This document shows, in pieces, positions 10,950 through 18,344 of a DNA stretch of 32,682 nucleotides; the first letter of the stretch is position 1; each line of letters opens with the position of its first letter. Source of the stretch: a virus. Both the position numbers and the translations under genes were made by a program. Where the stretch lies: the IMG/VR virus record IMGVR_UViG_3300018084_000008, positions 1 to 32,682 of that record, one strand, 5' to 3'. Under the pieces are notes generated by a model. The model was not told the origin of the DNA. It made no database searches and saw only the letters and a program-made list of their open reading frames with translations.

Positions 10950-12020
10950 TCAGCCCAGCGGAAGCGCCCTGCGGTAGACGTCGCTCAGGTGCGGCAGCGG
11001 GACGTGCGTGTAGATCGCCGTCGTCGAAAGACACTCGTGCCCGAGCAGCACCTGGATGTGTCGGATGTCCGCGCCGCCCGCGAGCAGATGCGTCGCGAAG
11101 CTGTGTCGCAGGATGTGCGGGTGGACCTTGCGCGCGATCCCGGCGCGCTCGCCGGCCCGCCGCACGAAGCGCTGCACCGCGCACGGGCGCAGCGGCCCGC
11201 CATTCTTGAAGTTCACGAACACGAAGCCGTCCGCCCGCCGCGCCCACTCCGGCCGCGCCAGCACCCGCTCGCGCAGCAGCAGCCAGGCCGTCAGCGCCCG
11301 CCGCGTGCGCGGCCCGAACAGGCAGTAGCGCTCCCGGCGCCCCTTGCCCATGACCCGCAGCACCCCGTGGTGCATGTCGATGGCCTCGACCCGCAACTCG
11401 GTCAGCTCGGTGAGCCTGATCCCGGTCCCGTAGAACACGTGCAGGATCGCGCGTAGGCGCACGTCGTCGTCCGAGGCACTGGCGGGCGCCGCGAGCAATC
11501 GCGTGACGTCCTCGACCGTCAGGAACCGCGGCAGCAGCCTCGGGAGCCTCGGCCGGACCAGCTCCTCGGTGAAGTCGGCCAGCACGTAGCCGGACTTCCG
11601 CAGCCAGCGAGCCAAGGACCGCGCGCTCGTCAGCTGCCGCAGCCGCGCGAAGGCCGAGAGCCGCGGCGCCAGCTCCCGGAAGTACGTCTCGAGCATCGCC
11701 GGCGTGATCGCCCGCGGGTCGTCCAGCCTGTAGCGCTCGGCCAGGAACCGGAACAGCAGCCGCATGTCCGACCGGTACGCGCGCAGGGTCTGCGGCGTCG
11801 CGCGGGCTTCCATCCGGGAAAGCCACGTGGACACGATGGGGTGGAAGGTCTCTTCGGTCGTGGTGGGCACGGGGAGCAGCCGAGGCTGCCCCGACTCGGC
11901 CGTGACGGCTAGGGATTGAGCGCCGTCCGTCTGCACGTCCGACGCCCCCAGCCTCCCCGGCCGCTGGTTGGCCAACCGCCGGAATCCTGTTAGGGTTCGG
12001 CCCCGCGTCGTTTGAAGCAC
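10950..12020 (-). CDS. int: Tyrosine-family integrase (XerC/D-like)
   Basis: Up to 356 aa from GTG 12020, which has no clear ribosome site. The SAM-like core-binding domain begins near residue 58 and spans about 60-145, so a shorter product starting near there is possible. The catalytic residues are complete: R202 (G-T-G-I-R-L-T-E-L), K226 (M-G-K-G-R-R-E-R), H302 and R305 (H-I-L-R-H-S-F), H328 (L-L-G-H) and nucleophile Y337 (A-I-Y-T-H). It catalyses strand exchange between phage and host attachment sites. A minus-strand terminator at 12130-12153 separates it from the early operon. A 37-bp direct-repeat arrangement sits at its 5' end. The first 50 residues use rarer codons and may not be translated. 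Confidence 0.9.
   Translation of the reverse strand: MLQTTRGRTLTGFRRLANQRPGRLGASDVQTDGAQSLAVTAESGQPRLLPVPTTTEETFHPIVSTWLSRMEARATPQTLRAYRSDMRLLFRFLAERYRLDDPRAITPAMLETYFRELAPRLSAFARLRQLTSARSLARWLRKSGYVLADFTEELVRPRLPRLLPRFLTVEDVTRLLAAPASASDDDVRLRAILHVFYGTGIRLTELTELRVEAIDMHHGVLRVMGKGRRERYCLFGPRTRRALTAWLLLRERVLARPEWARRADGFVFVNFKNGGPLRPCAVQRFVRRAGERAGIARKVHPHILRHSFATHLLAGGADIRHIQVLLGHECLSTTAIYTHVPLPHLSDVYRRALPLG
11966..11977. repeat. 12-bp perfect palindrome near integrase 5' end
   Basis: GGTTGGCCAACC lies in the poorly conserved 5' part of the integrase frame. Perfect short palindromes beside integrase genes can be core or regulatory sites, but no second attachment half is available to test this. 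Confidence 0.35.
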
Positions 12021-12257: not shown

Positions 12258-12872
12258 TCATGGCGCCTGCCTCGGGCCGTCGCCCAAGCCAGAGACGAGC
12301 GCACGCGCGTGGCGTGCCTGGTCGCTGACGCTCTCGCGCCCCGGGTACTGGTCCTCCAGCACGCCGGCGACGTGGTCCTTGCGGCTCGCCTCGAGCTGGT
12401 CGCGCAGCGACTGCGGCAGCAGCAGCCCCTCGCGGACCTTGGCCTGCAGGCTCTCGTAGGCCGCGATGAAGCGCGCGCGGTGGCTCGGCCCGTCCGACAG
12501 CTCCGACGTGCACAAGTCATACCAGCCGATCGTGCACTGCAGCGCACGCTCGATCACGGGGTCGGTGAAGGACGGCTGGCGTGCCCAGCCGAATCTCCGG
12601 ATCGCGTCCAGCACGACGCCCCACGCGGCCTCGGGCGACTCTTCGCCGATGGTGCGCTTGGTGGACAGCGCGGCAGCGCGGACTTCGGCGATGGACGGGC
12701 AGAACTTGTGCGTCGCCAGCAACTTCGTGACGGCCATCTTCAGCGTCGGCACGTCGATGTCGGCCAGCAGTTCGCGCCAGACGGCAGCCGTGTCAGCCGT
12801 GAAGTTGGCGTGCGGGTAGGCCGTGGCCACCGTGGCGATCACGGTCAGCACGGTCTCGTCGCGGTCGTTCAC
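12258..12872 (-). CDS. Replicative helicase loader (G39P-like)
   Basis: 204 aa. GTG 12872 overlaps the upstream stop as GTGA and has AGGAG six bases before it. The N-terminal half matches the SPP1 G39P loader pattern: V-I-A-T-V-A-T-A-Y-P (11-20), W-R-E-L-L-A-D-I (32-39), A-V-T-K-L-L-A-T-H-K-F-C-P-S-I-A-E-V-R (48-66). The family loads DnaB-type helicase at the phage origin. The C-terminal extension (W-G-V-V-L-D-A-I, then Q-S-L-R-D-Q-L-E-A-S-R) is longer than in SPP1. It directly follows the replication initiator, as expected for a loader. Confidence 0.75.
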   Translation of the reverse strand: MNDRDETVLTVIATVATAYPHANFTADTAAVWRELLADIDVPTLKMAVTKLLATHKFCPSIAEVRAAALSTKRTIGEESPEAAWGVVLDAIRRFGWARQPSFTDPVIERALQCTIGWYDLCTSELSDGPSHRARFIAAYESLQAKVREGLLLPQSLRDQLEASRKDHVAGVLEDQYPGRESVSDQARHARALVSGLGDGPRQAP

Positions 12873-13711
12873 GATGGCTCCTGGTCTAGGCGGCGGGCAA
12901 GTTCTTTGACCCCAGCCAGCGGGTCGCGGCCACGCCCGCCCACTACGGCCGGCGCGATCCCGCGCAGCTCGGGCAAGTTGGCCTTGGAAGCGAACAGGCA
13001 GAAGCCACGGTCCGTGCTCGAGATCCACGGGTCCACCGACGTCAGCCAGCGTGTCGCCCTCGAGCGCGCCGTCTCCGGGTCGATCAGCTTCAGCAGCCGC
13101 GTCGCTGCGACGCCGTCGCGGGCCGTGATGCCGTAGGGGGTGCCCTGCGTCGCGAGGTACTCGTCACGGAACCACGAGAGCAGCTCCTGGACCGGCCCGG
13201 ACGGCTTCCGTGGAGGCTTCGCCGCGGGTGGCTCAGGCGGGCCCGACGCCGCAGGCGGCGGAACGTCTTTGTCCTTCCGTTTCTTCTCTTCTCTTCTCTT
13301 CTCTTCTCTGGTCACGCTCGTGCGTGACGGCGGCGTGACGGCAGCGTGACGTCCGGAATTGCGCTCGCGCTCGCGCTTCGCCTTCTGTCTGCGGGCAGCA
13401 TTCAGGCGTTTCTTGGCCGCCTGCGAGAACCACCGATCCCACTTCGGGATGGCGCAACCGCCCTCGCTGTCGATGTCTAGCCACCCGACGCGCGACATCG
13501 CAACGCACAGTCCTGTGACGCGCGCGAGACCGTCGAGGTACGCGGGCGTGACGGCAGCGTGACCGTTACGTGACTGGCGGGAGAACCACGCCCACACACG
13601 CATGAGTCCACCCGCGATCTCGTTCTCGGTCTGCGCCAGGGCCAGCGCCATCGACACGACGGCGGGGTCCTCGTGCAGATCGAGGCGCGCGGGCATCCAG
13701 TCACCAGCCAT
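12869..13711 (-). CDS. O-like phage replication protein
   Basis: 280 aa from ATG 13711; an in-frame TTG at 13738 would add nine residues. The N-terminal domain (about 1-95) looks like a winged helix, with W-M-P-A-R-L-D-L-H-E-D-P and G-L-M-R-V-W-A-W-F. A basic linker of R-E-E-K-R-R repeats and a Pro-rich stretch (about 100-172) follows. The C-terminal domain has L-L-S-W-F-R-D-E-Y and R-A-T-R-W-L. This N-domain/linker/C-domain layout fits replication initiators of the lambda O or DnaD kind. Its gene contains regularly spaced iterons and a pentanucleotide tract, so the origin may be internal. It lies next to a helicase loader. Confidence 0.7.
   Translation of the reverse strand: MAGDWMPARLDLHEDPAVVSMALALAQTENEIAGGLMRVWAWFSRQSRNGHAAVTPAYLDGLARVTGLCVAMSRVGWLDIDSEGGCAIPKWDRWFSQAAKKRLNAARRQKAKRERERNSGRHAAVTPPSRTSVTREEKRREEKKRKDKDVPPPAASGPPEPPAAKPPRKPSGPVQELLSWFRDEYLATQGTPYGITARDGVAATRLLKLIDPETARSRATRWLTSVDPWISSTDRGFCLFASKANLPELRGIAPAVVGGRGRDPLAGVKELARRLDQEPS
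13284..13308. repeat. (TTCTC)5 pentanucleotide tract
   Basis: Five perfect TTCTC units, with a partial unit on each side, encode the R-E-E-K-R-R-E-E-K linker on the minus strand. A gain or loss of one unit would shift the frame of the replication protein. The tract is a strand-asymmetric polypyrimidine run next to the iterons. Confidence 0.85.
13323..13351. repeat. Iteron triplet 1 (CGTGACG, 11-bp pitch)
   Basis: CGTGACG begins at 13323, 13334 and 13345, exactly one helical turn apart, within units of the form nGCGTGACGGC. An inverted GTCACG sits at 13311. The 11-bp pitch is not a multiple of three, so protein repetition does not explain it. Likely initiator-binding sites. Confidence 0.7.
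13547..13574. repeat. Iteron triplet 2 (CGTGAC, 11-bp pitch)
   Basis: CGTGAC begins at 13547, 13558 and 13569, again exactly 11 bp apart. A 19-bp block here (13545-13563) is identical to one in the first triplet (13332-13350). A related TGTGACG sits at 13514. Both triplets are in the same orientation. Confidence 0.7.
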
Positions 13712-13964
13712 CGGCGGTCCCCAATCCGGGCGCGTCAACGCCCGCCGTGCTGCCCACCTTCAGGTCTCGCGGCACGCGCTGGGCCGGCCGCCGGCTCACG
13801 GCCAAGGCGTGCGACCGACGGCGCTCCTTCCGGGCGGCCTTGCGCTCGGTCAGGTACTTGTTCCAGCACGGCAGGCAGAGGCAGCGGCGGCGGGTGGTGC
13901 TGCGCGGCCTGCCGCAGCGCGTGCAGGGCCGCGTGGCGTTGTCGGCGGGGGGCTTGTTGCTCAT
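13701..13964 (-). CDS. Small zinc-finger-like protein
   Basis: 87 aa from ATG 13964 in an ATGA overlap with rusA. Metal-site pattern C-T-R-C (14-17) and C-L-C-L-P-C (28-33) precedes a very basic helix K-A-A-R-K-E-R-R-R-S-H. It ends 11 bp inside the replication gene. Such tiny CxxC proteins are common in phage replication operons. DNA or RNA binding is inferred from charge and cysteines. Confidence 0.65.
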   Translation of the reverse strand: MSNKPPADNATRPCTRCGRPRSTTRRRCLCLPCWNKYLTERKAARKERRRSHALAVSRRPAQRVPRDLKVGSTAGVDAPGLGTADGW

Positions 13965-17823: not shown

Positions 17824-18066
17824 CTAGGCTGGCGGGCGCTTCCGGGCGGCCTTGCGCAGCTTCGCCAGCATCGCCACGGCCCGGAACGTGTCCGGCTCGT
17901 TCTTCCCGAGTCGCCAGCGCAGGACCGTGCTGGGCGTCACTCCCAGCAGGTTCGCCAGCCGCAGATCTGTCCAGCGATCCCCGGTCGCTTCCTCCAGCGC
18001 AGCCAGCGCCGGGAGCAGATCGTCCTTGAACGGCTTGCGCGTTGCCATCGCAGCTTGATCGTACAT
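17824..18066 (-). CDS. XRE/Cro-like transcription regulator
   Basis: 80 aa from ATG 18066, with GAGGGG seven bases upstream; an internal ATG at 18048 lacks a ribosome site. A helix-turn-helix is visible: L-R-L-A-N-L-L-G-V-T-P-S-T-V-L-R-W-R-L-G (about 36-55), followed by a regulator-type tail F-R-A-V-A-M-L-A-K-L-R-K. It is the first gene of the leftward operon beside the divergent control region. Its small size without a second domain fits Cro or a minimal repressor rather than a full CI. Likely autoregulated through the TGCAAG sites upstream. Confidence 0.75.
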   Translation of the reverse strand: MYDQAAMATRKPFKDDLLPALAALEEATGDRWTDLRLANLLGVTPSTVLRWRLGKNEPDTFRAVAMLAKLRKAARKRPPA

Positions 18067-18182: not shown

Positions 18183-18322
18183 GGGAGACTTGAGCGGAGC
18201 GGCTTCAGCCAGGACTCAGTCCGGCGCTGCTCCGCCCGTCCAGCGTGGGAGTAGCTGCATGGGCACTCCGCATGGCGCCAAATGTCGAATGACAATCTCG
18301 TCATCTTCGTCAGACGCCACAC

Positions 18323-18344
18323 TGTTCAGGTTTAAATCTGGACA
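18323..18344. promoter_or_regulatory. 22-bp dyad, candidate rightward operator
   Basis: The dyad has half-sites TGTTCAGGTTT and AAATCTGGACA; 9 of 11 pairs are symmetric about the central TTTAAA. It is AT-rich in a GC-rich context and ends 26 bp before the first rightward start codon. Suitable for a dimeric repressor. Confidence 0.5.

Follow-up and report, generated by a model that had tools for sequence, protein, structure and literature searches.

Several phages and plasmids carry replication origins within the gene of the initiator protein. In lambda and Stx phages, iterons and an easily melted tract lie in the middle of gene O (PMC7466680). The phage locus analyzed here resembles them in that iterons and a tract are found inside the initiator gene, with a loader gene next to it. 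As in lambda O-type origins, one iteron cluster (cluster 2) and the tract come just after the N-terminal domain, while cluster 1 lies within the coding sequence of that domain. The initiator shares no sequence homology with lambda O at the level of Pfam. In contrast to lambda, the sites here are short words with a repeat distance of about 11-12 bp. They usually form two arrays, of which one is inside the sequence coding for the N-terminal domain, and they are accompanied by a purine-repeat tract.

The origin oriL of phage SPP1 consists of direct repeats and an AT-rich element within gene 38 and is associated with the loader gp39 (PMC6316719). The initiator gene described here likewise contains repeats, and the next gene matches Inhibitor_G39P. 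However, SPP1 possesses another origin that lies outside gene 38, of which we saw no counterpart here. No gp38-family label appeared among the Pfam and PHROG matches of our initiator. In the case of pSK41 Rep, the N-terminal domain binds four sites located centrally in rep, and the part of the protein for which the ori codes is dispensable (PMC5703833). The Rep boxes within rep are comparable to the iterons within the initiator gene; a Pfam match to RepA_N (PF06970) was found neither for our protein nor for the family members tested. For iteron plasmids, such as those with TrfA acting at oriV, strand-specific binding of the unwinding element has been described, and the iterons adjoin short repeats in that element (PMC4081077). 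Our iterons also adjoin repeated short sequences in a putative unwinding element, but here the origin would be located within a gene and the unwinding element would be a purine pentamer repeat.

We know of no mapped origin in the PHROG_2509-type initiator family. We also found no description of this family's origin in the published literature, with most subscription papers lying outside the search, and the available parts of PMC8044961 and PMC8951638 contained neither "iteron" nor "repeats". Based on sequence comparison, we consider it very probable (about 87%) that the module is the theta-replication origin of the phage, situated inside its own initiator gene and working like the origins of lambda O, SPP1 gp38, and pSK41 Rep. 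It would be set apart from these by its two arrays, by word changes that affect both gene parts alike, and by the purine tract.

The initiator gene and its repeats

The window, i.e., the whole stretch of DNA analyzed, comprises 32,682 bases from a virus record and has a G+C content of about 68%. The replication initiator gene (12869-13711, minus strand) encodes 280 amino acids when the ATG at 13711 is taken as the start. The open reading frame as listed has 289 codons (12869-13738, minus strand) and starts with a TTG at 13738; we placed the start at the ATG because the relatives, with N-termini of MAGDW or MASSW, begin at MAGDW, which is encoded from that ATG. Residues 10-177 matched the profile of phrog_2509, "replication initiation protein", with an E-value of 2.9e-41. 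No Pfam family was found for the protein at E≤1, and no family occurred in more than one of 42 members of the initiator family at E≤0.1. A second viral contig (L002, IMGVR_UViG_3300021081_000016) encodes a protein identical to the window initiator across all 289 residues.

Directly 3' of the initiator gene lies a helicase-loader-like gene (12258-12872, minus strand), whose match to PF11417 Inhibitor_G39P (E 7.9e-6, 26.8 bits, cut-off 22) indicates that a G39P-type loader adjoins the initiator. It also matched phrog_2289, helicase loader (E 1.6e-6), and its top PHROG, 9804, has no assigned function. RusA and a phage-type exonuclease are encoded upstream of the initiator gene according to Pfam and PHROG matches. 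The open reading frame next after the loader gene (10950-12020, minus strand) is presumably tyrosine recombinase-like, judging from a motif, which suggests a temperate phage.

The N-terminal domain of about 100 residues (coding sequence 13412-13711, minus strand) is predicted to be winged-helix-like. The AlphaFold2 model of residues 1-136, based on 42 sequences, had a mean pLDDT of 89.2 and a pTM of 0.69. It contained helices at residues 29-46, 56-63, and 68-74, followed by short strands at 79-80 and 86-87 and a long basic helix at 97-123, and the helices together with the two strands are predicted to form a winged helix. Foldseek retrieved nothing at E≤0.001 with this model, the weak matches being mostly winged-helix regulators, and the best Z-score by VIA-align was 5.8. 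Two entries that we take to be pSK41-type structures, 4pt7 ("Structure of initiator") and 5kbj ("Structure of Rep-DNA complex"), scored a Z of about 5 amid unrelated winged helices. We rejected the RepA_N-like and ORC rows at this level as evidence of kinship because unrelated winged helices score alike. The only match in the profile search of solved structures, a ferritin at E 0.99, was dismissed as chance.

In the direction of the gene, cluster 1 is followed by a gap of 202 bp, cluster 2, one base, and a purine tract of 30 nt. Cluster 1 (13547-13574, minus strand) comprises three direct sites starting at 13547, 13558, and 13569 with a pitch of 11 and no convergent site; a candidate degenerate site nearby, GTGACG at 13515-13520 (minus strand), was read from the sequence and is one base off the word. 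Cluster 2 (13311-13350, minus strand) has direct sites at 13323, 13334, and 13345 with the same pitch and a convergent site at 13311-13316 with a spacing of 12. Its last two sites read GTCACGC-ACGA-GCGTGAC on the gene strand. Among the tandem arrays listed for the window by TRF, the two with the top scores are neighbors: TCTTC in 5.6 copies (13282-13309, score 56) and GCGTGACGGCA in 2.7 copies (13322-13351, score 53).

The preliminary description of this DNA had located CGTGAC at all six direct sites and the inverted copy GTCACG at 13311, and every coordinate proved exact. The seventh base, G, which it added to the word, is present only at 13323, 13334, 13345, and 13547 and missing from the other two sites. 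The 19-bp block that it had noted in both clusters, starting at 13332 and 13545, is the longest exact block shared between them. It had also proposed a candidate origin inside the replication gene, a reading supported by the outcome of both tests that it had set as possible refutations, the shuffles and the iterons of relatives. Its placement of that origin between two domains suits the cluster at 13311-13351 but not the one at 13547-13574, which falls within the part of the gene that codes for the N-terminal domain. Similarly, the suggested lambda type is reflected in the layout but not in the protein, which lacks any match to a Pfam family. The GC skew around 13.3-13.6 kb, which it had named as a further check, makes no turn there and offered no support.

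The spacing of the sites stands out statistically. The pattern CGTGAC-N5-CGTGAC with at most one mismatch occurs four times in the window, always in these clusters, with 0.70 expected, and none of 100 dinucleotide shuffles reached four. The preliminary description had suggested repeat statistics against synonymous shuffles. When the gene was shuffled 20,000 times among synonymous codons, no shuffle contained four pairs of a 6-mer that share orientation and a single non-codon pitch. A single run of three equal spacings appeared in 294 of the 20,000 (1.5%). Taken alone, the count of the most frequent 6-mer in the gene is ordinary, as 6,938 of the 20,000 synonymous shuffles reached it.

The purine tract (13280-13309, minus strand), the proposed unwinding element, is a 30-nt pure purine run of AGAGA repeats on the gene strand, providing the codons of REEKRREEKK. 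It was absent from the preliminary description and is also part of the origin-like module. The tract begins one base past the last iteron, and no other purine/pyrimidine run in the window is as long, the next having 11 nt. Its 60-base neighborhood from 13262, with a G+C content of 0.467, is tied for the second lowest among separated 60-mers of the window. All three Arg codons in the tract are AGA, compared with 1 of 306 in ten other open reading frames of the window. The 60-mer with the lowest G+C content in the window (18280-18339; 0.417) adjoins a small HTH-like open reading frame (17824-18066) and may be a regulatory region.

Iterons and purine tracts in related genes

A protein search of phage genomes returned 41 records, all with less than 60% identity and matching chiefly the N-terminal third to half. 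Such initiators are common, as each of two scans of viral contigs confirmed more than 500 relatives. We collected loci from 15 of the 41 phage records, the best 80 of at least 559 and the best 80 of at least 575 confirmed relatives from the two scans, 50 loci from genome contigs, and L003. Three loci without a stop codon, the duplicates L001, L002, and L229, and proteins shorter than 150 amino acids were dropped. The 224 complete genes were reduced by shared 3-mers in the first 150 residues to 100 non-redundant genes including the window, a set biased toward genes near two query groups. The contigs of L179-L228 are labeled as Gammaproteobacteria, Planctomycetota, Verrucomicrobiota (Akkermansia), and others, which implies that the module has spread across several phyla.

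The anatomy seen in the window recurs in this family. In the first 150 codons, counted on either strand with purine runs masked, the commonest 6-mer exceeded 300 synonymous shuffles in 74 of the 100 genes at p≤0.01, a number that rises to 87 at p≤0.05. Three word classes, GTAACG, GTCCGC, and GTCACG, cover nearly all genes, the window belonging to the last. Relatives thus retain iterons together with the protein, as expected from the preliminary description, though mostly with another word. Two clusters were found in 84 genes, three in 4, one in 9, and none in 3.

The word in one part of the gene agrees with that in the other. Codons 1-100 and codons 100-150 carry the identical word class in 94 of the 100 genes (49 GTAACG, 38 GTCCGC, and 7 GTCACG); when the second part was shortened by the purine mask, 76 of 100 agreed and 17 had ties in one part. 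The six discordant genes lack a called word in the first part (L217 and L223) or the second (L225), are tied (L016), or are mixed (L218 and L220). On one domain tree with 94 labeled rows, the shared word changed five times by parsimony; the single placements are unsure because several branches, that of the window among them, are long. L063 is about 72% identical in the domain to relatives of the GTAACG class, yet has GTCACG in both parts. Three words on one fold offer natural "specificity swaps" for studying the co-change of initiator and site.

The spacing between direct neighbors is narrowly distributed, being 11 in the GTCCGC and GTCACG classes and mostly 12 in the GTAACG class, and convergent neighbors are mostly spaced by 13, taken over six-base words. 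The earlier argument that a pitch of 11 is not a codon multiple therefore applies to the window and the GTCCGC class but not to the GTAACG class, where the usual direct pitch of 12 is a codon multiple. The first cluster starts mostly at nt 54-71 in the GTCCGC class as opposed to nt 144-152 in the GTAACG class, and L003 has the GTCCGC word at the nt-150 position. From these class-specific starts and L003, it appears that the arrays move within one protein domain and occupy different codons.

In most of the genes printed, a purine tract closely follows the last site, regardless of the word. Exceptions include L003, L063, L183, L185, L220, and L223, in which the automatic search took another stretch or the tract differs in kind; the tract of L003 is made of CAGACT repeats. 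On family average, the G+C content of the tract is about 17 percentage points below that of the gene, and the tract is completely strand-asymmetric.

Explanations for the repeats and a proposed mechanism

Chance and pure codon effects were ruled out by the synonymous and dinucleotide shuffles, the family-wide shuffles, and Arg codon usage. We weighed four further explanations against the origin. The sites could form an operator array, at which a repressor or the initiator itself controls transcription without any origin. Operators, too, typically consist of short inverted and direct sites in arrays. However, the word pairs are confined to the gene: at the 94 concordant loci, 80 of which have at least one pair within the initiator gene, pairs at iteron spacings numbered 256 in 74,130 bases of initiator genes versus 1 in 342,069 flanking bases, which for most loci include about 2 kb upstream, and picking the word as common in the gene creates some bias toward the gene but hardly a thousandfold one. 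The purine tract after the second array in most genes printed also speaks against an operator, and we regard this explanation as unlikely. Slightly less likely still is an RNA-level element, in which the convergent sites would be mRNA hairpins and the tract would act on the message or on translation of the loader. Convergent pairs such as the one ending cluster 2 of the window can form hairpins, and the codon evidence is equally compatible with selection on DNA and RNA. On the other hand, a convergent site is missing from cluster 1 of the window, neither the one-turn direct pitch nor the sharing of a word across about 200 bp has an evident RNA reason, and the annotation of the gene is that of a replication initiator.

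The DNA repeats might also be a by-product of the protein, i.e., of a linker that is charged and flexible, together with repeats of VT/GN peptides. The direct sites of the GTAACG class mostly keep one reading frame (152 of 170), and the residues of the tract are usually charged even where the letters differ. Nevertheless, GTCACG sites occur in all three frames and GTCCGC sites in several, and the 74 genes beyond synonymous shuffles at p≤0.01 also speak against such a cause. In addition, Arg in the REEKR-like motif, present in 68 of the 100 genes, is encoded by AGA in 182 of 183 codons, compared with about 8.5% elsewhere (29 of 337 codons in the basic stretch immediately preceding the motif and 75 of 886 in the remainder). 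The tract is thus under selection as a nucleic acid and not for its amino acids. We had redone this comparison with a protein-defined motif because choosing the tract by purine content favors AGA; defined by purine content, 205 of 223 Arg codons were AGA versus 8.1% outside. A protein-level cause is accordingly very improbable. We give equally little credence to the tract serving mainly as a junction at which N- and C-terminal modules are exchanged. L015, of the GTAACG class, does share a near-identical block from the tract onward with L008, L119, L120, and L121 of the GTCCGC class (385-397 nt at 95.0-96.4%, starting 2-14 nt before the purine window), suggesting that the N-terminal domain and the iterons may travel together against different C-terminal parts. 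Yet only five such pairs were found in the 224 genes, four of them probably representing one event, and the fifth (L012/L064, 75%) starts 112-128 nt past the tract; moreover, exchange leaves the iterons unexplained.

For the intragenic origin, we envisage steps of binding, melting, and loading that are modeled on those of lambda O, SPP1 gp38, and pSK41 Rep. The N-terminal winged-helix domain would bind the 6-bp iterons, which are one helical turn apart, on the same face of the DNA, and the two bound arrays, about 220 bp from each other, could then assemble into a nucleoprotein complex. Strain would be released in the adjacent purine tract, which would melt. The initiator or its C-terminal domain might conceivably hold one of the melted strands, a speculation following the precedent of plasmid Rep proteins (PMC4081077). 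The G39P-like loader from the neighboring gene would subsequently bring a DnaB-type helicase. The anatomy could serve as a sequence rule for finding origins in uncultured phages.

The purine tract outside the initiator family

The purine tract is also a candidate for an unwinding element common to several families. The exact 23-nt tract pattern was found at 80 or more loci in viral contigs. Among the 80 matches listed, 61 belong to the initiator family by profile, and two further loci do so by PHROG (L305 and, more weakly, L289). PHROGs of the replication initiation, O-like, or primosomal type were matched in 10 of the 17 other loci (L231, L240, L242, L246, L249, L259, L278, L287, L290, and L300), and L266, outside the family, has Pfam Phage_rep_org_N. 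The remaining loci outside the family are L252 and L262, with PHROGs of no assigned function, L237 and L288, with no PHROG match, and L261 and L267, whose printed sequences are close to L249. At least 74 of the 80 loci among the matches listed are therefore in replication-initiation-type genes, some of which have a different N-terminal domain (Lin1244_N or Phage_rep_org_N).

By a first statistic, repeats before the tract exceeded those in synonymous shuffles at p≤0.05 in 4 of 17 loci outside the family (3 at 0.01) and in 36 of 61 within it. With another statistic of higher sensitivity, which was selected later, the counts were 11 of 19 outside the profile set and 52 of 61 in the family. These counts are suggestive of repeats before the tract outside the initiator family as well.

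Given the tract loci in other initiator-type genes and the repeats before their tracts, we tentatively raise the possibility, at somewhat less than even odds, that (AGAGA)n is a nucleic-acid element common to sequence-unrelated families of phage initiators. It would be an intragenic, strand-specific element for unwinding or ssDNA loading, a phage counterpart of DnaA-trios and plasmid 13-mers, kept on the coding strand, where it would immediately follow iterons specific to each family. The familiar-looking REEKRREE segment of phage replication proteins would be its translation. If this is true, the tract together with iterons would permit sequence-based origin prediction in many uncultured phages.

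Finally, 15 of the 100 genes (L010, L011, L015, L019, L026, L028, L064, L137, L142, L157, L169, L170, L180, L200, and L213) have an inverted repeat of the form C4+...G4+ within the 75 nt that follow the tract. Such a repeat was present in 2.95% of synonymous shuffles and in none of 400 stretches from the N-terminal part.
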